Source of the DNA: Chaetoceros tenuissimus
Taxonomy: Eukaryota; Bacillariophyta; Thalassiosirophyceae; Chaetocerotales; Chaetocerotaceae
Reading direction: 5' to 3'
Assembly (NCBI GenBank): GCA_021927905.1
Contig: BLLK01000047.1
Coordinates: forward strand, 1,054,001 to 1,118,000
DNA length: 64,000 bases
A program made the translations under genes and the position numbers. Below the pieces are notes generated by a model. It ran no database searches. It saw only the letters and a list, made by a program, of their open reading frames with translations, and had not been told where the DNA came from. Each line of letters begins with the position of its first letter. Positions within the stretch are counted from its first letter, which is position 1. Below, one piece after another: positions 1-15,618 of this stretch.

Positions 1-318
1 TGCTTGTCTTGGTGGAGTATCTTTTGGTTATCGGATGTACATTTTGCCTTGTTTGTATGTTGGGTAATGCCACGTTTGAATGTGGCAGAAATGCAGCTGT
101 GCTAGTTACCAACAGAGCTAGTGATGATACAATAAGCTTCATTTTCAAGTTAGATTGGATTGAGATCATTCAAATGAGCATGTAGTATGAAGATATCGAT
201 GAGATGAACCTCCATTTTTGGAAAGTCGTGAAAAGAGAGAAAGCGAAAAATGAAGAGAGAGAGAATATTCATGAATGAAACATGTAATGAATAAACTGGA
301 GGGGGGTGACGTAGGTGT

Positions 319-335
319 GGGGCGGGGTGGGAGGG
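319..335 (+). promoter_or_regulatory. potential G-quadruplex
   Basis: GGGGCGGGGTGGGAGGG has four runs of at least three G separated by single-base loops, the most stable class of predicted quadruplex. It sits in a purine-rich tract just upstream of the 704-2920 gene, in otherwise AT-rich DNA. That it folds, or acts as a regulator, is inference. Confidence 0.55.
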
Positions 336-430
336 AATTGGAAGAGAAAGAAGGGGAGAGAAGAGGGACAGAAAAGAGGTATGAAAGGGGAGGGGTAAGA
401 GAAGTGTGAATAACTCAAAATTATTTTGAG

Positions 431-467
431 ATATTTCATGTTTTCCAATACAAGCTGGTTTCACAAT
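431..467 (+). repeat. left copy of short dispersed repeat
   Basis: The unit TTTCATGTTTTCCAATACAA and the bases after it match the plus-strand unit at about 3390-3420 with roughly three differences in 33 bases. Bases 449-464 (TACAAGCTGGTTTCAC) are also the exact reverse complement of 3301-3316. The DDE-like gene at 704-2920 is therefore bracketed by related direct and inverted copies of one repeat. Confidence 0.6.
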
Positions 468-703
468 TTTTGATGCTGCCGTAGATTCTACGCAAAACCA
501 TATGGTGACGTCAAATAGGCCTTTTAACATCTCTTCTCAAGACTCATTTTTCTGCGCTCCTCCATACAAACTACAGTGTAATTACATCAAAATAAAGCCA
601 TTACAAAACATTCCATAAAACCTTAAATATAAAAATTCAATTGGATCCCCATTAGCGGAAGCTTCCTAACCCACTCTAGTACCTAGGACTGAAGCGGATC
701 CAA

Positions 704-2920
704 ATGGATTTCCATAGTACTTTCATACCAGCACTAGTTGCATACGCAATCAAAGATGATTCTTTCAATATGCACAAAGGCAAGTGGATGGTAGAAGGAA
801 CTTTATCAGCACTTTTGCTGAACCATTACAACATTGATAAAGAACTTTCATTTACAGAGGATATACTGGTGAATGCTCTAGGGCAGAACAATATAATTAA
901 CCTTCGAAAGCACAACCTAGCTGGTGTCCATGAGTCCTTGGAAAGGAACATGTCTAGGTTACATGCCGTTGATCATCGCCAAAAAGGACAGAGGAGAAGG
1001 CGGGTATATTATATAGAGATGAAGCCTTTTGTACCTAGAAGGTCAAATAGATTAAAAAGGGTGCATGATGAAGTATCAAATACATTACCTGCCATAGTGT
1101 CCCCAACACCAACGAAGAAGACAAGAAGGCGATCCTCACAATTACAAGTAACCGATTTGAGTCATACAAGTGTCAGCAGCATTATTTTGTTTCTAAGTCC
1201 AAGAAATCATTTCAGAAATGTAAAAACAGATCTTGTGGTGAACTCAAGTGATAGAGTATGGTTCAAAGAACTTCTCCAACTTCACATTAATACTCTAGAA
1301 CAAATTCAAGGTTCAAATTGTACTCCGATTGAAATTGTAGATGCAGAATTACAAAACCAAATGACTGACGCCAAACATAAAAAAATTGCAGATAGGATTA
1401 GGGAAGAAGTTATCCAATCCATATCAAATGGTAAATATAAGGCTGGTGGTCCAAGCATTTATTGGTATAGTACCGAAGCAAAGAATTTGTTCTGCCCTGA
1501 CAACAAAGAGTTTGGTGGAAAACAGCGTTTGATTCATGATTCTTTACTAACAAAAGGATGTTTGGGAACTTATAATCCAAAGTTCAAGGTTGGTGATACT
1601 CAATCTTTTACCTTTTGCGAGTCATCGTCTGGTCCATTTTTCATGTCACCTTTGGAGAGGGAAACACTCGAGAATGGTGACTTGCATGATTCAAAATTCG
1701 TGCCAATACCAAAAAACGTTCTATTACAAAGATTATTTGAAAAAGGTTTATTTATAAATCTTGACACTATAAGAATTGCTAATTGTGAGTTTCGTATTGA
1801 CCACCAAAACCGCATGTTGTATGGGAAGGATAAAAAGCTATCTGCAAATGAAATACGAAGCTTATGTGAAGACCGTCATATTGATCCACACGCTTTTCAG
1901 CAGCAAAGGCCATCTAACAACACTCTTCAAGCTCTTGTAAAACATTTGATTGATAATATTCCACTGCATGAAACTGTCAAATTTCAGAATAGAATGGTAC
2001 ACATTGATCGGCTCAATAATTGCATTTGGAAGCGCAATAACGTTATACCAACCATGTATGTCCGAAAATTGTGTAGAGAAAATGATGTTGAATGGAAACT
2101 ACAGAAACCATGTGTGTCAAATTCAAAGGAAGTTGACAAAAGTATCAAGGAGCTGCTGAAAGATCTAACAAATGATGGGCATTTTATCCCACGCAATAGA
2201 ATGAAGAAAGCAGACTTGATTAGTTTCGCTACGAAATATGACATTCCAATCAAGAAAACAGTTGAGACACAAGTAACTGAAGGCTGGGTTGGAAAAGCAA
2301 AGGGGAAGCTCCAGATTGCTTTTGAACGTGGCTTATTAAACCTAGAAAAATACTGTGTGGAAGAATTTTCGGACAAAGGTAAGAAAGATGAAAATGGAAA
2401 TGTGATACGAGAGACAAGTTTGAACGAGTTACTTGCTTCATGCTCAGATTTCATTGAAGAAGAGAGCATGCTTCAAAAGAATATTAAAGATCTTGGGGGT
2501 CAGTGTATACACTCACCAAAATATCATTGTGAAATTGCAGGTGAAGGTATCGAATATAGTTGGGGAAATTCTAAAATGAAATATAGAAGAAGTAAGATGA
2601 TTGATCGGGATTCTTTCAAGAAATTTCGTGAAACAGTAGAGGAGTGTCTTTCCAGAACTTACCTAACAATGGAAAGAATTAGGATGAATTCACGGCGTGC
2701 GCATGAGTATATTGTTGCCTATTTTATTCTTTCAATTAGTGATGATAATCTTGATGGTGGAATAAAGGAGTTTGAACTTGATGCATTGAAGCCACAAGCT
2801 GCAAGCGCTTCAAAAATTGAGCAACTAAAGGAAAGGGTTCGGTCACATCGTGCTGCATTAGACTTTGATACTGGTTTCTGTAAGGCAACAGTTTGCATCA
2901 AAGAAGAGAGTCAGAAGTAA
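704..2920 (+). CDS. DDE-transposase-like accessory protein, 738 aa
   Basis: One exon from ATG 704. The N-terminal 500 residues are not recognised. They include a basic arginine/lysine-rich stretch (about residues 95-140) and two or three short helical repeats of the form LSANEIRSLC...LVKHLID, which look SAP-like. The last 200 residues resemble the C-terminal half of a transposase-like family common in protists: a GWVGKAKG segment, then SPKYHCEIAGEGIEYSWGNS at about 605-625. In relatives the glutamate of the IEY-WG motif is the catalytic acid of an RNase H/DDE fold. I could not place the two upstream aspartates, so catalytic competence is doubtful. The gene lies tail-to-tail with the Rep/helicase gene, with about 590 bp between them. 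It is either a passenger of that element or a neighbouring transposon; shared flanking repeats favour some linkage. Resemblance to DDE proteins is recalled, not searched. Confidence 0.55.
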   Translation: MDFHSTFIPALVAYAIKDDSFNMHKGKWMVEGTLSALLLNHYNIDKELSFTEDILVNALGQNNIINLRKHNLAGVHESLERNMSRLHAVDHRQKGQRRRRVYYIEMKPFVPRRSNRLKRVHDEVSNTLPAIVSPTPTKKTRRRSSQLQVTDLSHTSVSSIILFLSPRNHFRNVKTDLVVNSSDRVWFKELLQLHINTLEQIQGSNCTPIEIVDAELQNQMTDAKHKKIADRIREEVIQSISNGKYKAGGPSIYWYSTEAKNLFCPDNKEFGGKQRLIHDSLLTKGCLGTYNPKFKVGDTQSFTFCESSSGPFFMSPLERETLENGDLHDSKFVPIPKNVLLQRLFEKGLFINLDTIRIANCEFRIDHQNRMLYGKDKKLSANEIRSLCEDRHIDPHAFQQQRPSNNTLQALVKHLIDNIPLHETVKFQNRMVHIDRLNNCIWKRNNVIPTMYVRKLCRENDVEWKLQKPCVSNSKEVDKSIKELLKDLTNDGHFIPRNRMKKADLISFATKYDIPIKKTVETQVTEGWVGKAKGKLQIAFERGLLNLEKYCVEEFSDKGKKDENGNVIRETSLNELLASCSDFIEEESMLQKNIKDLGGQCIHSPKYHCEIAGEGIEYSWGNSKMKYRRSKMIDRDSFKKFRETVEECLSRTYLTMERIRMNSRRAHEYIVAYFILSISDDNLDGGIKEFELDALKPQAASASKIEQLKERVRSHRAALDFDTGFCKATVCIKEESQK

Positions 2921-3505
2921 ATGTAGTGATAATTCTATAAAGGTGCGCGATCAATTGAGGAAAATTGTTGTGTTGAGGAGGGAGTTGTATAGGACGGGCC
3001 GTTCGTTTGGAATTGATGCGCCGAAGCCACCAACCCATCCACAAGCCTAGCTGAACCCCTATGTCACCGAAAAGATTCAGGCATGAGGGGCACCCATCAC
3101 ATACTGACCGCAGTCAATACAACTGAAAAGAAGAAGAAACGCTTGCTTCCTTCATTTTGTTGATGATGTTTTGTGTTCGTGATGTGATGTTGTTTCACTG
3201 GCTGAGAATGCATCAAATATGTGACATTTTTACTGCTTTTTAGCTGTCTACGTACAAACATACTATATCCGGGTTATTTTCTACGATATCTACTCGATCC
3301 GTGAAACCAGCTTGTACAAGCTGTATTGACACGTCTCAAATTGGGTATTCTTTTTTCAAGGTTTCCAATTCAAGCTACATTCGTAGTATTTCAAGTTTTC
3401 CAATACAAGCTGTATTCACAAGTCTCAAATATGGTATTCATATTTCAAGGTTTCCAATACAAGCTACATTCGTAATGTTTTTTTGATCCTATTTATATAT
3501 TCAAT
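2921..3505. other. spacer between convergent genes
   Basis: Apart from the 3301-3481 repeat nothing is recognised. An open frame at 2865-3050 overlaps the end of the upstream gene in another frame and shows no domain. Confidence 0.4.
3301..3481 (+). repeat. degenerate tandem repeat with palindrome
   Basis: About two copies of an 85-90 bp unit, each built around TTTCAAGGTTTCCAATACAA and an AAGCT(A/G) segment, lie between the stop codons of the two convergent genes at 2920 and 3506. The left end contains a perfect 16-bp palindrome, CAGCTTGTACAAGCTG, at 3308-3323. Bases 3301-3316 are the inverted copy of 449-464. The position just past the 3' end of a Helitron Rep/helicase gene fits subterminal repeats, but I see no clear CTRR end with a hairpin. 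Confidence 0.6.
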
Positions 3506-6500
3506 TTAATTAGCTTTATACCGTTTCGAATGGTTTCTAACAATTTGATACAAGTTTTCTTGACAAGTAACATTGGCTTGTTTTTGATTTAACCACTGCA
3601 ATATGTTCGTTCGTTCATCATCTGTTGTGTTCAAATTAGTGAGAGATTCTTTTTGATCTAAAAACATCGTCCAAAATTTCCTCTTTTTGACTTTCGTGTA
3701 TATTTCATTTGTTAGTTGTGGTTCTACAAACTCATTAGCATTTTCATTGTCCAATTTCCGCTTCACACTTTTTCTTTTGTGGTGTATTTCACGTATTCTT
3801 GTGTAAAGTTTAAACTTGCTTTCATAATTGAAATAAATAGCAGAATTGTTGACGTCATTTGTTCCCATTGAGGTAGCTCTACTTATTCCAGTGTACAGTA
3901 AGCCTGGATTGTTCCCTTCGAATGCTGTTTTACCTGGATTAAAAACCATTATTGTAACCGGATGCCCTTCTCCTATTGATTGACCTTGAACTTTATGTAA
4001 AGTTCTTGCAAATGCAATTTCTAATGGAACATATTTCATTTCACAACATCTGAGATTGCATTTTGATCTATTTTCTAGCAATGTTTGAATTGGAACTGGA
4101 ACATATGTTGGGTATCGGTTGTCCCAAGGTGGACCACAGTAATTGTCAAAATCTACAATTACAAACAAAGGCAAGTTCCCAGTCAATGGACTTTCTCCTT
4201 TAGCAAAGCGAATATCAATCACTGTTCCCAATGACCCATTAAATAATCCCTGTAAAGGACATTTGTTTGTTGTTAGTGAAACCCTCGCTCCTCTCGTCAG
4301 TACCGTCTTTGCTTCAATTAAAGTTGTCAATTTGAAATGAGATTTGATTGGTTTGTCTAACTTTGATTTTGGAGTTTTGTGCAATTGATATGGAAATTCC
4401 ATCAATGGATTTGTCTTGTCTACAATTTCTCGCAGTTCCTGTTCATTATGTGTGAATACCTCTTCCTTGGTCGTGTAGACGAATAGAGCCTTGTCTTTGA
4501 TTTGGAGTCTGCGTTCTTTTGTAATGTCTTCGTTATCTAAGTTCAATCTACAAATCGCCATACTCTGGTCTTTTGTCAACCCAGACTTTGTTCTAAGAGT
4601 TTCATTGATTTCTTGCAACATTTCCTGATTAGGAACTATTCTCTTGACTTGTCGTAATGATTTGACTTGTTGAACAGTTGACTCAAGTATTTGTGCTCCT
4701 TTCAAGTCGGATCCAGTCATGGCATCATTTTTAAAACCTGTTTTTGAGAATAGATCAAAGGCTCCAAGCTTTTTGACTGGTGGCAATTGACTGTCATCGC
4801 CTAAAATAAGAATAACTGGGATTCCACCAAATATTTCTTCAGTATTACCTGTACCATGTGCAAATTCACTACAATTTCTGGAGATTGCATTGAGAAGTTC
4901 CAAACTAAGCATGCTACGTTCATCTATAACAAGAAGCAGCACGTTTCTCAACAATTGAAATAGTTTTTCTTTTTTGTATTGAGAGAGTTCTTTTGTTGGG
5001 TCATCAATGTCAATACAAAATAGAGAATGAATTGTTTTTCCAAAGATGTTGTATGCCGCGCATCCTGTTGGCGCACATGATTCTGATACTTTCACATCAA
5101 AGATTGACTCAATTGCATTGACAATAACCTTGACTAAGAAACTTTTTCCAGTTCCACCTGCCCCTCTAACAGTAAGAATCAACGGTTCAAATTTTCTAGA
5201 AGGTTCTTGAGCCTGGACTTCAGGAAATTCCATCCATTCTTTTATTTTTTGAAGCACTTTGAATGTTATTTCCTTCTGTTCTTCATTGTCTCCAATGTCG
5301 CTAATTACGTATGGCTTGTTTGTAGAGCTGTTAATGTATTTTTTTTTCTCTGATGATTGCTGCAAAGCCATAGCGTCTATTGTGTCATCAAGCCAAGTAG
5401 GACCAGATTTATTGTCTGGGTCAAAGTCATGATGGATTTCATTGAAGTCATATCCGTCGTCACCTTTGTAGAAGTCACTAAGTTTGGAATGATCAAACCT
5501 TGCATGACTTACAAGGTTATATAAATTTGTTGACTCTTCGTTCAGTTCTCCAAGGTCTTTGTTATGGGCTTCTTGAGGGGCACTTCTGTACAGTTTTCTT
5601 TCAAATTTATGCTTGGCGATACAATATTGCAACTTTACAGACTGTGGACAATCGTCAGACTCAAGGAATTGATAAAATTCATCAATTGGAGTTTTCTTCT
5701 TCAATTCGAAATCCAATCTGTTTCTATTGTCCCATTTCTTATGCAACACCAGCGTAGCAATAGCATAATGATTAGTTGGAGGAAATATGGGACTCGAATT
5801 GAACCCAATAGGATGGAGATATCTTTGTTTAGTTTTGGGGTCAATCCTTTTCAATCTCATATTGTTGTTATTGTTCAAATCATTTCCTTTGTCAAGAATT
5901 TTCATATATTCAACGAATGTAAGGTTTTTTTGAGTATCATGTCTAAACTTGTATTTCTGAATTGGGTCAGTCATTTTCTTTTTTTCTTTCATAAGCTTCT
6001 GCAACCCAGTGAGATTTATATGTTTAGCGCTTTCCGTGCACCAATATAGATCACACCCCATAAGTTCAACAGACGCTTCAGGCTTTGATACTATTCTGCT
6101 TGTCAACAATGAGTTCATAGATTTTCTTAACATGGCATTCATGTTCATTCGCTCCGATCTAACCCCGCAATTTTCATATGTGCTAATTATAGCTGCTATT
6201 GAATTTCTCTCTTCCTGAAATGAAAGATTGCCTTTTGTACAGTATGAAGTGATGTAACCATTGATTCTTGCAATATCTGCAGGAACTATATTGTTTGGAT
6301 CAGTAGCATAGACGATGACTGAGACATCACAATTTGCTCTCCATGATTCCAACATTGAAGTAGATGTTTTTTTGAGTCTGGAATTATTTCTTTTCAATTT
6401 CAGAATATGAATATCCTTTTTGTAGTCTTTTTCAATGGAAGCTGTTTCCTTTGGTGATTCAAAGCCAGGTGTACTTGTGTGGTCGTTAGGAATAACTTCT

Positions 6501-9090
6501 TTACCAGCTCCCATTCTGCATGTTCTCGCTGTCCCATTACTGAGTAACAAAAGTTAGAATTTTGTTGTTAGTGGTGTGAATAATGTGCTTATTGACTTAC
6601 GTTGTTTGAGGACCTAAACAGTAATCAGAACATTCATGCATGTGTACGTCATAACAAAGTTGGCACATGTCGAGTTTGTGGTTTGACGCAGAAAAAAAAT
6701 TGGTGGATAGAGGCGACTGTTTTGATAATAGGTTAGGAACCCTATTTAACTCAAAAAAGTTTAGAGGTAGTTTGTACTTACTGAACTATCGGAACTTTCG
6801 CTTGTTTCTCTTAATTTTTGTTGTTCTGATTCCTAAAGAAAAGTAGGTTTAGTTCTATTCATTTAATGTAAATGGTGTAATGATACAATTTCACTTACCA
6901 GTTTTTCTTTATCAAAATCTATTTCCTCTGTTAAAGACAAAACATTTGTGACATATTCTTCCATTAATTCTGCCCCTAATTCTTCCTTGCGTTCAATACA
7001 AAACGTGTGATAGAATTCAGTCAATAGTTCATGATCTGCCGTGATTGCTACCATATGCGCATGAATTTGCCCTCTCCCTTTTGCAAATTCAAACCTGAGG
7101 TAATAGTGTTTGATATTGAAGATGTTTTTTCCTATGGTTTCAAGCCAATTGTCTAATTTCTCTTGAAAGAATACTTGAACACTTGCTGTGTATTTATCCA
7201 CTAGTTTTGCTTGAATTTTTCGTTGTGATTCTTCATCTCCCTCTTCCAATGACTGTAACAAATGTTCATCTTCAGTGTTCATAATTTTCTTCTTTAGAAA
7301 ATGCAAAAGATCATTCCACCAGTATTCTGCGCATGAAAATGTCATGAAAAGGGTTGGAGGTCCATGTCCCTTGTCTAAATGGTAGGCCACCCAACTGTCC
7401 AATTCATGCTTTCTTGAGCGCCACCAGCCATCACTCCCTCTAATTTTTTGAGCCGCAAAGTTTTGGATCTTTCCAACAGTTGAGAAGTTGCCATTCTCTA
7501 TTTCTTCTTTAATGTCGTCAACAGTTTTGTTTTCAGAGAACATGGACTTGAGAAGTGTAAGAGAAGACCCATTGTTTACATGTCGTTGAATGAAATTAAA
7601 TGCATGGAAGGTAAAACATGGATCATGTTGAAATCGTCCATCTTCCCACAGTAACAATAGTTTTGTCCACTCAATTGCTTTTGAACGTTCAGATTTCACT
7701 TCATGGGAAATATCACCATATCCACCTGGAAAAAGCCACGGGTAACACTTTGCAAAACAATCTTCTTCTGTGTATTCGTCTACTGGGTTTTCGTCTGTTT
7801 CTGGCCACATAATTGTAGATGGTGTTGTCTTTTTTGCAGTTGCTTCTGCTAATTCATCAATGACTTGTTTACTTTCGACTGAGAACAATGAATCCGCTCG
7901 ATCGGATGCAACCCCACACATTTCCATTGTTTTTTCTTCTAGTGGATTTACTGTTTGCTTTTTAGCAACAGAACAGTTGCTGTATTTTTCAGACAATGTA
8001 TGATTTTCCTTAAAGTTTGTGAATTGCGCTTCTTCTTTATCACCCATCCAATTTAAGTTCTCCTCGACAATTGTGATGTCCCGATAAAATCTATTATGTT
8101 TCTTCAACCAATTTAATGCTGCTAGTACTTTCTTTCTCCGAACTTTGAATGTGTCGAAGGTTTGCTGGTCTTTATTCACCGACAGTCTCTTAATTTCAAT
8201 ATAATCCAGTTCACTACGAGGTAACTGCAAACAAATACTTGCAATATCTCTCTTGAACATAACAGTATGTCCACATAATCCTTTTCAAATGAATTGTGGC
8301 GTCAGTTTATTTCAAGAAATTTGTTTGATTCAATTTTTAATGGTTACATCTTACCGAATTTCCCTTTTCCAATATGTATACAAGGAATTAAGAATGACTG
8401 TGTTTGTATCAGCATTTTCTCTGTCACAGTAAGATCTCTGAGTTCTTCAGGCAATTCATAATGAGCTTCTTTGTATTTATCTTCTTTGATCTCATCATCA
8501 TCATACCAAACTGGGAACATACGAAAGCATTTCTCTTTGTCTCTGTTGTTCTTGCGACAGTCAGAGCATTTTTTGGTTTCACCACCATTGAATTTGTTCG
8601 AAATAAAGGCTCCTTTACATACTGAACATTTGTGTTGATCAATTGACAGGTTTCTTGCTTCGAAAGCAATCATTTGTAGTATTTCGTGTTGTCTAGATCT
8701 CGAAGATTGAAAAAACAGATCCCTTGTTTCATCTGAAATAGATAACTGCGGATGATCTTCTTCTGCTTGCAAATCAATAAAGGCTTCCATCATTTCATCC
8801 AGTTTGTTTTTACTGTCTCTCCACGTAGATTGCATCAATGGATCTATTTTTCCATTCAGGAAATATTTGACCTCTCCATAGGTTGCGTAATTTAGGTATA
8901 ACTCATATACTTTTTCAAAGAATAACGTTGGCTTTCTACCAACTTTTTTTTTCCGAAACTGTAGGATTTGTTGTACATGCTGAGATCCACAAAAGTCTAC
9001 TATCTCATGATGTTGGCATGTACTCTCACGAACTCTTTTCTTTCGCTTTGCTTTGGATACAGATTTATAATGAGATGCAATATTTTTCAT
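3506..9090 (-). CDS. Helitron-type Rep/helicase (RepHel), 5 exons, 1772 aa
   Basis: Rolling-circle transposase with an HUH nickase and a PIF1-type helicase. I read five exons: 9090-8355, 8280-6899, 6832-6782, 6716-6601 and 6539-3506. All have GT-AG introns of 61-74 nt, and the joined length is exactly 1773 codons. Order of parts: CxxC pairs at residues 155/158 and 175/178; CYPWLFPGG near 424; Rep motif LFMTFSCAEYWW near 555-567; HUH motif GRGQIHAH with histidines 652 and 654; a zinc-type CQLC...CSDYC segment in the small fourth exon; WRANCDVSVI; the catalytic tyrosine pair GYITSYCTKG (857 and 861); Walker A GAGGTGKS (about 1221-1228); Walker B VIDE (about 1301); GDDSQLPPV; and the C-terminal helicase motif LHKVQGQS. 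Every expected Rep and helicase motif is present and no frame break is seen, so it looks recently active or under selection. Start chosen at the first ATG of exon 1. Confidence 0.9.
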
Positions 9091-9131
9091 ATGTTCTATG
9101 TGAAAAAAAAAATGTTAGTTTCATTTAGAAT

Positions 9132-11210
9132 TTAGAAGAAGTTATTCATATTGCGATCATCAAATTGAGTCTTGAAAAGAACCTGTGCAGCCTCTCTGGT
9201 ATAACCCTTGAAAAAATAGGTTGCGAATGCAGCAATGTCTTCATCTACTAGAAATTCATCAAGTTTCAATCCAATTTTTGAGACAATAGGAGTACTTCCA
9301 AGATCTTGTGAAAGATTGCATCTTGCATCAGTGATCATCGCTCCGTACAATCCGCCTCTTGCTCTCTGCATTGCAGCACGGAACACTTTTGGCAGACCAT
9401 TTTTGATCAAGTTGAAGGATGGATTTTCTTCTTTGCCAGCGGCCTTTGTCCAAAGTTCATTAAGCACATCATCAACTTGCAGAGTATTCTCTGGACAAAC
9501 ATACTCCCAATAAGCTGCAATCTGATAGCATAGGAACCAATCTGGAGAAGCTAGAATCTTCTGTATTTCAGCAATCAACAGTGGTACTTCATTGTTGGCA
9601 TCCTGAAGATTGGTAGCTTCCAAATTAACACGGAGAATCGCTTGATACTTTGCATATGTTCTGAATGATACGAAATCGTTATTCAAAAGCCCTGGGTGAG
9701 CTCTGATTCTTCCTGAGTAGGCATGGGATTCCAAAAGCCTCTCTGTGATGTTTGACATAGATCCAACCTCAAATTTATAGTCATCTTCATCCCAAGTGGA
9801 ATAACAAGTCTGCCAAGATTTGATAAAGACTGGAGCTCTAAATTCAAACATGTGTTTGTCTTCGCCTCGGTTCAATTCATTGATGGCTGTAATGCCCAGG
9901 ACAACTTCAAATTTGTCACTACTGTGATCACTTTTGATCGGTACAGACGCCTGGACATGACAGTATTTCTTTCCAGTGGTAGTTGTTTTGGGAGATGATT
10001 TCAACTTTTTGAAGAAGAATTTGCCGGTTGTTGTCTTCATTGGAGTTGATGGAGATTCCTTCGACGACTTGGACGGAGAACCAGAAAATGAACAGGATCT
10101 AGATGATGCGGATGATGCAGTTCCTGACTTCGCTGATGTTTTTGATGCAGGTCCTGACTTTGATGCTGATGATGCTGTTCCCAATGCAGATGCAGATCTT
10201 CCGGAAGATGTTGAAGATGCAGATGGAAGACTTTGACTAGGTGAATCCTCACTATTCTTCTTCGCTTGTTTGTTAGCACTATTATCCATACCGAGTTCCC
10301 TTTTATTGCTTCTTTAAATCAAGTAAGATTCTATTTGGTTCGAAAAAGGTAAATAAAATAGCTATGCACTTACTCCATTTTGAAAAGTGATACCAAATCA
10401 ACACCATTCAAACCATTTGGCCCTAGGTCAACACCAACCTTTTTCAGGTTTTCAATGAGTTCATTATTATATTTTGCATCAATTTTTTGTTCATGCTTGG
10501 TTTGAGCCAAGTGAAACCCAGGAGCAAATCCTCCACTCAATGTTTTTTCCTCGTTTCCAACAGTACTTGCAACAGGTTTCTCTTCAAGTTCCTCATTATA
10601 CTCACCTTTCTGCTCAAGAGATTGCTGGATATCTTGATTATGATTGACATCAATTGCTGCAACCTTTAGTATCTTCGGAGAATTCAAAAGAGATCCCCTA
10701 TTGAAAATGATAAGTTAGCAAACCATAGGTTACGAACCCAAATATCTCAAAACGATTTCTATCTATCTCAGATTTGTAACCTATTACTTACTCTTCTATG
10801 TCAACCTTGAAATATGTAACTTTTCCTTCAAACTCTTTGTTGATAGTCCAAAAACCAGTTTTCTGGTCTACATCCATGTACTTATTCAAGATAGACAAAT
10901 AAGTGGACAGATACTTAATAGAGTCCCTTCTCTTTTCTTCGGAGATCTTTGGAAATTTGATTTCATCATTCTCCAGAGTCTTTAGAAAATCCTTCAATTC
11001 AATAGATCTGATACAATGGAACAATCCCTTTCTAAAGAAATCCGCATAGACAACTGCGAGTTTGTTGATTTTCTCATGCTTGGACTCTAAAGCAGCTGCC
11101 TTCACAATGGAGGCAATAGACTCATCTCCGGTTTTTGCAAAGGCCTTGCCAAGTGCAACAATAGGAGCAAAAAGCTCTTTGAACTCATTATCCTTTTTGT
11201 CCTTGTTCAT
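9132..11210 (-). CDS. unrecognised 3-exon accessory gene B, 640 aa
   Basis: Three exons (11210-10792, 10697-10374, 10311-9132) with GT-AG introns of 94 and 62 nt join in frame to 641 codons. The open frame extends to 11240, but that first codon is GTG; the first ATG is at 11210. No family is recognised. The first 140 residues are charged and helical. The middle (about 265-355) is a Ser/Ala/Gly/Lys-rich disordered stretch. The last 290 residues are globular and open with KYCHVQASVPIKSD, followed by alternating strand-like and helical segments. The gene ends 41 bp before the ATG of the Rep/helicase gene on the same strand, so the two could share regulation. Known Helitron passengers include RPA-like single-strand-binding proteins. 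An OB-like fold is possible for the globular part, but I cannot show it. The exon structure is well supported; the function is unknown. Confidence 0.75.
10698..10791 (-). repeat. first intron of gene B, carries shared motif
   Basis: This 94-nt intron includes an inverted repeat, ATAGGTTAC...GTAACCTAT (9-bp arms). Its plus-strand stretch AATATCTCAAAACGATTTCT and onward resembles, over about 48 bases, the first intron of the oppositely transcribed gene C (11315-11421). Confidence 0.55.
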
Positions 11211-11225
11211 TTCCTCAATACTAAT

Positions 11226-13797
11226 ATGAGAGAATTTCACAACAACGACATAGCTTTCAATGAGGAAGTTTCTCCAAAGAAGAGGAAGTCTTCTCCCGAA
11301 TCAACCGAAACAAGGTAAGTATTGGTATGGTCTCTTAACCTATTTGTTGAATATCTGAATATCTCAAATTGTTTTTTATCTATTTCGGGTTCATAACCTA
11401 TCATGGCTTTGATTCAAACAGGAAAAAAAGAAGAAGTGGAAGAAGTAAGAACGTTTCTGCAGAGAATCTAGAATCTGAGTTCAATAAGGATACTGATGAT
11501 GAGGATGATAATAATGATACAATGGACAACAAGCGTGCACCATTTGAATATTCCTTTATTGGTAAACCAGTTCAAGCAGATGTAAAAGTTGAATCCGATG
11601 ATGATGAACATACCGAGGAAGTTGTTGACAAATCGCAACAGGAAATCGATGGTAAACCGAAACCAAAGAAAAAAAAGACAACTCGGAAACTTCCAACCAA
11701 GAAAAAGAAAGGGAAAACACGCAAAAAGAGTTCTGATGATTCAAGTGATGATTCAGATGATGGTGATGATGTAGTTGAAGAACCACTTCAACAAATTACC
11801 AGAATATATGCCAATATGGAAGAAAAGAAATATGTGCTCGAAAAGGTTTACCGTACCTACAATTTCCTTTTCCCGGACCGACAACACATTTGTTCAAATT
11901 ACTGTTCAAAAAAAGCTACGTAAGTCAAAATGACTTTTTGTTTCAATTTCCATTAACATATTTCTAACTACATCAACTCAGTGATGGTCAACGAGGAACT
12001 TGTCAAATGGACAATCAAATGGAAATATCAACTAATGAAACAACAGGTTCAACCCAACAGGAAGTTCAACAAGAAATAACTGCAGGCGTGGATGGTGAAA
12101 GCCCAGAAAGTCAACAGCCTCAAACAAGTAAGGACCAAGAGACCGTACAAACGCAAGAACTTCAACAAGAAATTACTGCAGGCGTTGATGGAGAAGATCA
12201 GAGACAAATTGAACCAGAAGATGAAGAACATCATGGACAAGAAAAGGAGTCTGAGACTGTAGAAAAAAATACAGAAGTAGAATATCAAGAGAAGCAACAA
12301 CCTCCAAATGAACAAGAGCACAAACCAAATACAGAAAACGAAGAGACTCCGTTGTATGAGAATCAATTGAACCAGTTCACCACCATGGCAGAAGTGGCAA
12401 CAAAGATTTTCTTCCTTCGACAAATGAATAAGAAAAAAAGAGAATACATCTTTAGCTCGTTTCCATCAGTACTGTCCGAAACAGTTTTCGATACAGTATC
12501 ACAGAGATCTATGTTTCCATTAAGCAGGCTAGATTCTGTTGGTCCATTCATGGATCAATATCTTCTGAAACTCAGATTGTCATTCAGTGGTCCTGTTTCG
12601 ATTGAAGACAAGCTATTCGGTTATGTGAAGGATAGAGTACAATCCATGCAACACATTCAATTGAAGTTGCATAGTATTCTTGCAAAGTTCCCCTTCTCCT
12701 CAACAGCATTTTCCACCAAGGTTATGCATGATCACTACTACTACGAAGGATTTTTTGATCTTAAACGAGATGTTATATCCACATTTTTGACACCTTTAAG
12801 ACAACCAAGAAAGGTATCATTCGACACGAATATTCCCCAAGAGAGATTTGACCAAGAGTTAACCAATACGTTTCACTTTGAACATGCAGAAAAGAAAGGT
12901 CATTTGGTTAGACCTTGGAATCGATTTGAATATTTGGTCCTTGACAATGCAAGATTCTACCAGGAAATATTTATAGAGAATAGTGTCATCTCATGCAGAA
13001 ATTTAATTAAATTGCCAACGAGAGATGAATTCATGAGAATAAAGCTTTACGAAGAACACGACAAAATGTTCTTGGAGGAATTGAAGTTTGACAAACTGTT
13101 CAAACTAACCACTATTGACAACAGAGTTCAAGTTTCACCCTATTCATCAGAGACTGGGTATCCACGCTACCATGACTATTTCAGAATTACACCACCTCTT
13201 TCTTTAGACGAATACAAACGTTTTAATTGTATCAAGATAGAAAATGTAGTTGCGGAAATTATTGGAGTAGATTGGGGAATTATTCATAAACCATCAGAAG
13301 AGATTGGAGAAGAGAATGAACAGTGGTTTTGTTGCTCAGACAGAGTCGAATTGTTCAAAGCAATCTCAGTTGATCCACATCTATTTGATGCAAATAGCGA
13401 TGATGAAGATGAAGATGAAGATAAAAATGATAGTGGAGAGAAAGACAATGAAGATAGTGGAGATGAAGATAGTGCAGAAGAAGACAGTAGTAGTGATGAA
13501 GATAGTGCAGATGAAGATGAACAAGGTCAAGAGAATGACAAAGACAATGAAAATGAGAACTGTGAAGATGAACAAACACAAACCGTCGATGATGACTTTA
13601 CATTTCGTCGAATAGTAAAAAAAGAAGAAGAAGAATACATATACACATTTACGACGACTGACGAGAAAGGTAAAAACCCGAATATATATGAACTTCAATT
13701 TGGAATAATTCATTCGAAAAAAGACATTCAATTTTATAATTTCGACGAGGACATATATGACCTACATCAGTTTCATCATAAGTTCATTCAAAATTAA
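11226..13797 (+). CDS. unrecognised 3-exon accessory gene C, 800 aa
   Basis: Exons 11226-11314, 11422-11919 and 11982-13797, with GT-AG introns of 107 and 62 nt, join to exactly 801 codons. The N-terminus carries nuclear-localisation-like basic clusters (PKKRKS, then RKKRRS across the first junction). Next come acidic and Lys-rich low-complexity segments, a short CSNYC...C stretch at the second junction, and an imperfect repeat QQEITAGVDGE (twice, near residues 215 and 250). A globular region of about 330 residues follows (about 310-640), then a strongly acidic Asp/Glu/Ser tract at about 660-730 and an 80-residue tail. No family is recognised. Its start codon lies 15 bp from the divergent start codon of gene B, so neither gene has room for a separate promoter between them. 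Both carry a related sequence in their first introns. A chromatin or nuclear role is only a guess from the composition. Confidence 0.75.
11315..11421 (+). repeat. first intron of gene C, carries shared motif
   Basis: The 107-nt intron holds AATATCTCAAATTGTTTTTT and a later ATAACCTAT that align with the plus strand of gene B's first intron, which is transcribed the other way. The shared sequence therefore sits in sense orientation in one gene and antisense in the other. Confidence 0.5.
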
Positions 13798-13820
13798 GTT
13801 AAATCGTCTAATCTGATCAA

Positions 13821-14855
13821 TTAACATCCCAACAACTGCGTAATAAGGAAATTATTTGCTTTGATTGCAAATGATGAACTATGACTCAGTAAATAATCAA
13901 TAGGATAAAGATTCAAATCATCTTTCTCAGCGAACACATCCAAGACATCTTTTTTTTCCACCAAACGTCGAAAATTACTGAACTCGTCTACGTCGCCATG
14001 AATACATATATAGTGTAGCATCTTACGAATTCTTCCTTCGAACATTACCTTGACGCCTTTACCATTCTTGATCAAAAAGGACATAGAAGCACTTAATTCT
14101 CCATATTCCCCGTGGTCATAGAAGTCTTCGTTAATTTCTTCTTCCGATGGAGAAATAATCGTAGTATTAAAGTATTCCATAAATCTTCTCTTTTGGTAAT
14201 CCCTTTTCATGATAGTAGCAACTTCGTGAAATAAACCTCTATTAACACAGTTGAATGAATCAGATGAAAATTTCAATTTTAACAAGTGAACTGCAGACAT
14301 TTTTTTTGGAAGTCCCAAATCATGTGATTTCTTCAACAAACGACACAAAGAAGTAGCTGGTGTTTCGAATGTAACTACTTCCAGAACTCTAGAAGAAAGA
14401 AAACTCTTGTAATCCTCAGTTATCACAACTCCCCCAAGATTACCATTCACCATGTTTAGTTCATAACCAACCTGACAGCAATTGATGTCAAAAAACTTGA
14501 GTAAATGATGAATACTGCTGCATTGTTTAACAAAAACAACATTCAATTTCTTGCATTTAGAATTCATAAAAATGCATCCATCCTTATCCTTCAACGGAAC
14601 TTTGTAGCTATCTTTGATTTTATAGCTCAGACTTTCGTCTACTTCAACAATCTTGTCTGTACTGAAGTCTATAACAAAAACATCAATGTCATTGTATAAA
14701 TATTTCCCGTTATGCAAAAATGTAGCAAACGACCCTGCAATGTAATACTTCAATTCCTTTCCCAAGCAGTTATGAATGAATGTCTCCTCATGCTTTAGAG
14801 TACACCATACGAGCTCACAAATCTTAGATGATGAAAACACTTCATTGGTACTCAT
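13821..14855 (-). CDS. nucleotidyltransferase-fold protein with ankyrin-like tail, 344 aa
   Basis: A single exon from ATG 14855, converging on gene C with only 23 bp between stop codons. Residues about 40-62 read AGSFATFLHNGKYLYNDIDV, which fits the pattern hG[GS]x9-13Dh[DE]h of the minimal nucleotidyltransferase fold (Gly-Ser, then Asp-Ile-Asp). A later KLNVVFVK strand could hold the next core element; FDINCCQVGYEL near residue 125 is reminiscent of uncharacterised nucleotidyltransferase-like proteins of large DNA viruses. The last 70 residues (LHYICIHGDVDEF, then a LYPIDYLLSH segment) look like one or two degenerate ankyrin repeats. Substrate and partner cannot be told. It marks the right side of the accessory block and is probably part of it, because the next gene has a clear host type. 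Fold call is by motif only. Confidence 0.6.
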   Translation of the reverse strand: MSTNEVFSSSKICELVWCTLKHEETFIHNCLGKELKYYIAGSFATFLHNGKYLYNDIDVFVIDFSTDKIVEVDESLSYKIKDSYKVPLKDKDGCIFMNSKCKKLNVVFVKQCSSIHHLLKFFDINCCQVGYELNMVNGNLGGVVITEDYKSFLSSRVLEVVTFETPATSLCRLLKKSHDLGLPKKMSAVHLLKLKFSSDSFNCVNRGLFHEVATIMKRDYQKRRFMEYFNTTIISPSEEEINEDFYDHGEYGELSASMSFLIKNGKGVKVMFEGRIRKMLHYICIHGDVDEFSNFRRLVEKKDVLDVFAEKDDLNLYPIDYLLSHSSSFAIKANNFLITQLLGC

Positions 14856-15618
14856 CTTTCATGTTATGTTGCTTGCAACATATATGTGTTGCACCAACGA
14901 AAGAATTACAGTTTACAATCTGTAACGATAAAAATACAATAGTATCAAGAAATAACAATTTAGTCTAAAAACAGCAAACCGGAATATCACAAAAAAATTT
15001 TTAGATATTCTGATTTTTTTTAGCACGATTTCCGACACATTAGCTCAGTCGTGTCTTTCAATTCTTATTCCCACCTAATTTCATTACTCGTTTTTCTAAA
15101 CAGATATAAAACACGATTGATGTTGACCGTTGAGTTTTCCTACTTTTTCTTGACAACTGTCAATATACCGTCTACTAATGTCAAAACGAGGTCAATCGGC
15201 TAAAACTCATGTAAATTGACATATTCAAAAAGACCTTGGATTATAAGCTTACGATCATAAAATATCTTAAGTCATGAAGATATTTTATGATCCAAATTTT
15301 TTTGCCATCAGCATATATTACTAGAAGTGGCCTCCGGGTCCGGTGAGCAAGTCACCCCCCTCCAGGATAAGATGAGGGAGATCCAAGATGAGATGAATTT
15401 TGCTTTCTTCTGTCAAAAAATGGCGCCAACAAGACCAATAGATCAGAATTAGTCCCATCTTCAAAGGGGGTGATTTGAATCTAAAGAGGGGGGAGAAGAA
15501 GATTTGAACTTGAACTTCAAAACGCCACGACGAGACGAGAGAACGAAGATTGAAGATGAATGAGATCCAATCATACATGTTGCTGCTATCATCATTGATA
15601 CATTAGCAATAAGAAATA
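14856..15618. other. spacer with strong hairpin, possible element edge
   Basis: No gene is seen. The stretch is AT-rich up to about 15,300 and contains the 15253-15292 hairpin. From about 15,330 the composition changes to a GC-richer sequence (GGCCTCCGGGTCCGGTGAGC), which may be where host DNA resumes. A 79-codon and an 85-codon minus-strand frame lie here without recognisable content. Confidence 0.4.
15253..15292. repeat. perfect 16-bp-stem hairpin
   Basis: GATCATAAAATATCTT (15253-15268) and its exact reverse complement AAGATATTTTATGATC (15277-15292) flank an 8-nt loop. Helitrons and relatives carry terminal or subterminal hairpins, and this one lies just outside the last accessory gene. 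The next CTAG is about 37 bp away, farther than the usual 10-12 bp, so a classical 3' end is not shown. Confidence 0.7.

Follow-up and report, generated by a model that had tools for sequence, protein, structure and literature searches.

The window, by which we mean the whole stretch of 64,000 nucleotides that was analysed, is part of the genome of the diatom Chaetoceros tenuissimus (G000:C34:1054001-1118000), and the genome searches reported here covered 41.0 Mb in 68 contigs. Towards its left end lies a large transposable element that encodes a RepHel protein and three further genes, which we refer to as B, C and N, with a second transposon of another kind nested inside it (Table 1). The original prediction of a Helitron-type element had set its limits at 431 and 15292; the ends have turned out to lie further out on both sides, and 15292 is the outer foot of a palindrome inside the element.

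Table 1. Features of the element in the window (positions are those of the window)
Feature	Position	Strand	Remarks
Whole element, family F1, window copy	251..15367	-	5' end 15367, 3' end 251; sharp ends common to five aligned copies, flanks unrelated
Bases taken as host	250, 15368		A at 250, T at 15368
3' hairpin region	266..293	-	conserved sequence across F1, F2 and the two F3 elements
3' asymmetric inverted repeat	296..310	-	15 bp, ~45 bp from 3' end
Nested TIR transposon, not part of the Helitron	451..3314	+	TA duplications 449-450 and 3315-3316
DDE-like transposase gene of nested transposon	704..2920	+	open 738-aa frame from first ATG
RepHel, 1772 aa	3506..9090	-	exons 9090-8355, 8280-6899, 6832-6782, 6716-6601, 6539-3506
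Gene B, 5'-truncated here	9132..11225	-	exons 11225-10792, 10698-10374, 10311-9132
2.94-kb deletion junction	11225..11226	.	relative to C33 and C3; common to partial copy C59
Gene C, 3' part only	11226..13797	+	exons 11226-11314, 11422-11919, 11982-13797; 1467 residues modelled in full
Gene N, nucleotidyltransferase-like, 344 aa	13821..14855	-	single exon; GSFA...NDID; PHROG 1614; 16 genomic matches
Long palindrome inside 5' end	15253..15292	-	16-bp stem in fold; kept in F2 (alignment)
5' terminal hairpin GGTGA/TCACC	15342..15356	-	overlaps 5' inverted repeat; F2 has GGTC/GACC at same place
5' asymmetric terminal inverted repeat	15351..15365	-	15 bp, 2 bases from 5' end; inverted match to 296-310

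RepHel had been predicted to be intact with five exons in frame, and the exons do indeed join without a stop. The protein has Pfam matches to Helitron_like_N (4.5e-18), PIF1 (1.1e-21) and DUF6570, and it contains IHAH and YITSYCTK stretches that we take to be the Rep motifs. A Rep domain with HUH and two Tyr is present together with a PIF1-type helicase in one protein, the combination by which Helitrons are recognised. A search of the PDB with exon 2 gave no relative (best E 0.97).

A 601-base piece of RepHel has nine matches in the genome, five of them full length at 100%, one at a contig end and three at 71%, and the surroundings of all nine were compared (for C32b over 10 kb only and for C59 only to the end of the contig). 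Five copies of family F1, found in C34 (the window), C33, C27, C3 and C32a, could be aligned and are near-identical, with sharp common ends and unrelated flanks. The longest are those in C33 and C3 at 15.2 kb, the window copy is 12.3 kb without its nested insertion, and the deleted copies in C27 and C32a are 7.6 kb. Searches with the termini recovered seven left ends and eight right ends at full length and 100%, and C16 holds a 2.26-kb derivative with both F1 ends, an open N and the tail of RepHel; the repeat counts from these searches are lower bounds. As the copies are nearly identical the element has probably been mobile recently in this small diatom, which is kept in a culture collection. 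Past the right end of the C33 copy, at a distance of 3.7 kb, there is a second, inverted set of that end, its flank and gene N (C33:1012639-1018086), to be read either as a palindromic duplication or as a fold-back in the assembly.

In each of the six F1 copies read both ends carry AT, bases that could otherwise belong to the element itself. When the flanks of the C27 copy are joined, 120 of the 122 bases align to contig C52 with 98% identity and only one AT at the join, and it is because of this one empty site that F1 would appear to insert at A^T without a longer target duplication. The right flank in C52 diverges from that of C27 after ~55 bases, so that C52 may not be the other allele of the C27 site but a paralog. 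The joined flanks of C33 gave no spanning empty site in the genome (one found for two tried), and an additional 6-base flank repeat at C32a is taken as chance. In F2, a second family described below, the 5' flanks carry AT in three of four cases and TT in the other. An alignment of copies and a search for an empty site had been proposed as checks of the original prediction, and both came out in its favour, with sharp common ends in five copies and one AT empty site; together with the RepHel domains they bear out the claim of a Helitron-type element.

Read in the sense of RepHel the element starts with TCCTGGAGGGGGGTGAC, and its 3' side runs ...GTCACCCCCCTCCAG, followed by a hairpin and then ...TTCA. 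The palindrome with its 16-bp stem lies 75 bases inward of the 5' end. Sequence resembling the 5' repeat is found at the ends of F2 and at one F3 end, the second of the two F3 5' ends compared being degenerate, and in an alignment of four elements the 3' end is strongly conserved. Folding compared with shuffled sequences gave z scores of -4.29 and -2.35 for the 5' and 3' ends of F1 and of -1.63 and -0.32 for those of F2, and because the F2 scores are weak the case for hairpins in that family leans more on conservation of sequence than on folding energy.

Asymmetric terminal inverted repeats together with hairpins at both termini, as found here, characterise Helitron2, and the element fits the Helitron2 type, a class assigned here by its termini and its lack of an endonuclease. 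A canonical Helitron1 was rejected as the 3' CTRR end is absent and the element ends in ...TTCA, and a Helentron was rejected on two counts, Pfam giving no AP endonuclease match in the 1015-aa frame of the last RepHel exon and the sole empty site being AT and not an insertion in TT. It had been anticipated that copies would have sharp ends of either the canonical 5' TC and 3' CTRR form or the Helentron form; the sharp ends were found, neither form was, and the ends are those of a Helitron2-type.

The three RepHel matches at lower identity belong to family F2, represented in C54, C48 and C32b, whose members are more than 99.7% identical to each other where they align, apart from gaps (0.6 kb across the boundary of B and RepHel in C48, 27 bases in C32b). 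The C48 copy is 17.5 kb in length. RepHel exon 5 of F2 is only 55% identical to that of F1, and the accessory proteins have diverged further, with amino acid identities of 36% (BLAST) or 39% (HMM) for N, 37-39% (BLAST) or 38-41% (HMM) for B and 28% for C. The block of RepHel, B and C is inverted relative to the ends when compared with F1, N keeping its place and orientation. The first frame of C in F2 is longer in C32b (455 aa) than in C54 or C48 (381 aa in each). Between N and RepHel the C54 copy of F2 encodes a 463-aa protein without a Pfam match and an LRR_5 protein (L023:1484-4282), none of which was seen in F1, and elsewhere on this contig an F2-like copy has N, B, C and a 5' end with no match to RepHel exon 5 (C54:1788305-1796720). 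Two further elements, at C34:1.908 Mb and C27:0.689 Mb, have open N genes with a mutual identity of 51%, and their RepHel matches cover the C-terminal half only, each spanning one stop.

Comparison of F1 with F2 by codon position gave identities at positions one, two and three of 0.52/0.69/0.39 for N, 0.55/0.64/0.44 and 0.51/0.59/0.35 for two exons of B and 0.64/0.74/0.41 for RepHel exon 5. At fourfold degenerate sites the raw agreement, not corrected for chance, is 21 of 47 for N, 18 of 35 and 17 of 52 for B and 69 of 186 for RepHel exon 5; identity at such sites is thus 33-51% for N and B, B exon 2 (18 of 35) being the least saturated. Comparisons among N genes gave a saturated, undefined dS in two of three cases and 2.5 in the third. 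These patterns indicate that N and B are constrained at the level of the protein, and at these distances they do not show how strong the constraint is at present. For gene C, with amino acid identities of 0.26-0.31 over 129-256 codons in partial alignments, constraint would seem less clear.

Gene N is the accessory gene for which most can be said of function, as it alone gave a lead when the B, C and N proteins and their alignments were searched against Pfam, NCBIfam, PHROGs and PDB sequences. The lead is a match to the nucleotidyltransferase family PHROG 1614 with an E value of 3.3e-4. The GSFA...NDID signature is invariant in all 13 aligned N sequences, including that of the window, and has the GS motif followed by DxD of the DNA polymerase beta-type nucleotidyltransferases, the usual third Asp not having been located. 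N itself has no match in Pfam; among 13 of its homologues the protein database lists PF26128 for five and PF12461 for one, and an hmmscan of N, P0003 and P0012 did not report PF26128. A scan of IMG/VR with N gave one distant relative, on a 465-kb contig, and a scan of prokaryote genomes gave none. The protein on the IMG/VR contig (L067:9638-10888) has 416 aa and carries the N signature as NDLD and FDINSCQLGYD.

Genes B and C are best understood from the longer copies. In C33 and C3 they are divergent, B on the minus and C on the plus strand, and start from a shared 5' region, and the full gene B modelled in C33 has four exons on the minus strand and encodes 774 aa. The deletion in the window copy has removed the region between the two starts along with residues 1-129 of the 774 of B, where the first remaining ATG is codon 135, and residues 1-667 of the 1467 modelled for C. 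In C27 and C32a the sequence corresponding to 9884-14508 of the window is missing, with 3 bases of microhomology at the junction, and the N frame of C27 ends after 116 aa. Gene C in C33 and C3 has an in-frame TAA and a change of frame relative to P0015, a relative that is 87% identical and open through this stretch. A model with short introns of 36 and 57 nt joining the two frames is disfavoured, and because P0015 reads through the region at similar identity it is more likely that gene C is interrupted in these copies. Among the copies of the assembly none was recognised as having all four genes unbroken, C being broken in C33 and C3 and deletions affecting C34, C59, C27 and C32a. The statement that all genes appear open and spliceable could consequently not be upheld, as the 2.94-kb deletion has cost both B and C their 5' ends in the window, and the two F1 copies in which the first half of C survives have an interrupted C.

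Neither of these two proteins could be placed in a recognised family. Among the database matches listed for B there is one, from C. tenuissimus itself, and for C there are two, at 87% and 45%. B resembles PriC with an E value of 8e-4, below the cut-off of Pfam. A DGxHR motif is conserved in all three aligned gene C proteins, one of which matches GmrSD_N at E 0.8, and we presume a likeness to ParB/DGQHR-type proteins, as a lead only with no significant match behind it. AlphaFold models were uninformative, with a mean pLDDT of 32 for B (P0014, without the first 134 residues) and 35 for C (P0015, first half only).

That B, C and N are part of the element and travel with it, as the original prediction proposed in describing a large Helitron with auxiliary genes, is borne out by the position of all three inside the sharp common ends of F1 and by the diverged relatives of the three in F2. 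The prediction was open to the objection that homologues of these genes might occur only as ordinary host genes, or that the ends might exclude them, and within this genome the objection fails. Every one of the 16 genomic N matches, 14 of them full length and two truncated, lies 0.5-2.6 kb inside a match to the 5' terminus and reads inward (distances worked by hand from the coordinates), and N keeps this place even in short derivatives without most of RepHel. The 26 pieces matching B fall into 12 loci, ten of which are near RepHel or a terminus match, the other two (both in C56) adjoining gene C near contig ends. The pieces of gene C (query residues 1-697) also make up 12 loci; both of those in C56 are known only beside B, and two, at C32:3.778 Mb and C38:0.403 Mb, are fragments near which no feature of the element was found. 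Those in C32 (C32:3778687-3779347) are 57-68% identical to F1, contain stops and are perhaps a relic of another family.

Taken together, the copies and their ends, the AT site, the open RepHel, the conserved termini and the retention of the accessory genes by diverged families make it very probable that we are dealing with a rolling-circle transposon of the Helitron2 type whose regular cargo is three accessory genes, a judgement that covers this much and leaves aside the roles of N, B and C.

Additional genes carried by Helitrons are as a rule regarded as captured passengers. B, C and N could likewise be host genes that were taken up by chance and are now drifting, and the truncation or interruption of B and C in the F1 copies examined is what would be anticipated of such passengers, the capture of gene fragments by Helitrons being known (available part of PMC6431247). 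We nevertheless think this improbable, given that the same three genes are present in F2 despite the divergence of RepHel exon 5, that N and B show codon-position patterns of protein constraint, and that searches of this genome found no host locus or parent gene for either of them.

It is less probable still, and would in our view be surprising, that the element is an integrated virus or a plasmid-like replicon that uses RepHel and for which B and C provide structural or partition proteins. The large gene set with its divergent pair, the lack of a recognised family for B and C, and the distant relative of N on the IMG/VR contig along with its match to a phage protein family would all be in keeping with such an origin. 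Against it, the ends are those of a Helitron, the scanned proteins have no capsid, packaging or polymerase match above the curated cut-offs of Pfam, NCBIfam and PHROGs, and scans of IMG/VR with RepHel exon 2 (reaching close relatives only) and with the gene C alignment were empty.

The presence of two transposase chemistries in one block, which had been thought unusual, is explained by the nested element. This is an independent transposon bounded by CAAGCTGGTTTCAC inverted repeats and TA, and of the other aligned F1 copies the four that extend across its site all lack it, C59 not extending across it. Searching the genome with the DDE-like protein gave 11 matches, made up of the window, a two-part copy in C17 and eight matches of 87 aa at 83%. 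The C17 copy has the same ends and different flanks, lies on a contig without a RepHel match and is split by ~3.2 kb of other DNA (C17:1256628-1262080). The protein has no match in Pfam with E up to 1, and it is on the basis of a motif recognised by eye and the TA and TIR anatomy that we take it to be a DDE transposase. A composite single element working with both HUH and DDE chemistries, to which only the position of the DDE gene between the shared Helitron ends of the window copy lends any colour, is refuted here by the four copies without the gene, the gene's own TIRs and TA duplication and the second copy in C17, and has virtually no chance of being correct. Beside the place of this insertion, near the 3' end of the Helitron, are two 77-nt repeat units that are 88% alike (window 3315-3480).

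Returning to the Helitron2-type transposon with its cargo, a mode of transposition can be proposed by analogy with known Helitrons. RepHel would nick the 5' end of the element, the helicase would peel off one strand, the 3' hairpin and inverted repeats would mark the end of the element, and the resulting circle would be inserted at A^T. More tentatively, N, being always at the leading 5' end, might act on nucleic-acid ends or on a host response during transposition, and the divergently transcribed B and C might support replication of the element or its regulation. A bolder proposal, which we consider possible and on balance rather unlikely, is that this Helitron lineage depends on an obligate module consisting of N fixed at the leading 5' end and of two new, divergently encoded proteins, one of which would have a core like that of ParB/DGQHR proteins, and that this module makes the transposon a partly self-sufficient circular replicon in diatoms.

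The element has much in common with Helitron2 as far as the accessible text of Bao and Jurka (2013, PMC3627910) describes it, namely asymmetric terminal inverted repeats, a 5' hairpin that includes some of the 5' repeat, a 3' repeat just upstream of the 3' hairpin, a 5' T, inversion of RepHel in some families and no endonuclease. It differs in that the empty site is AT here and TTTT then T/C there, in that the 3' repeat lies ~45 bp from the end rather than 20-30, and in having three conserved accessory genes and reaching 15-17 kb. The FoHeli elements of Fusarium oxysporum (accessible text of PMC5148889) also have Helitron2-type ends with RepHel inverted between families that share them, and FoHeli1/2 insert at an AT-containing site; they are however about 5-11 kb in size, no RPA-like genes are reported from them, and B, C and N are not described in that text.

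As regards cargo, HELPO1 of Pleurotus and the Phytophthora proto-Helentron come closest among the precedents in the portions of the literature available, and both have other extra genes. HELPO1 (Castanera 2014, PMC4289320, in part) reaches 13.7 kb with one to four extra genes, of which those described were found only inside Helitrons, some of them of unknown origin and function; these cap genes differ between subfamilies, after which they are named, whereas the diatom families keep the same three despite deep divergence. The proto-Helentron of Phytophthora infestans (PMC4067079, in part) is likewise from a stramenopile, is ~14 kb in length, inserts at A^T, lacks an endonuclease and has several extra ORFs, but its structure is described as that of typical Helitrons and the extra ORFs encode a SET domain and two hypothetical proteins of 218 and 266 aa. 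No description of the present element was found in the accessible literature on Helitrons and Helentrons, diatoms and Chaetoceros, subscription papers being mostly outside the search, and the word Helitron is absent from the main text, as available, of the C. tenuissimus genome paper (PMC8613185).

A conserved set of accessory genes in a Helitron2-type transposon is unusual. As these genes have been retained while RepHel diverged deeply, as N and B show signs of constraint and as the place of N is fixed, the element offers a testable case for the idea that some Helitrons need more than RepHel. It also illustrates how the reading of a single copy can be misled by a nested transposon and a deletion. 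Finally, elsewhere in the window, between 18520 and 27133, there are genes with cysteine-rich tandem repeats, whose periods are 75-322 bases, and a 2-kb stretch is duplicated with 94% identity.
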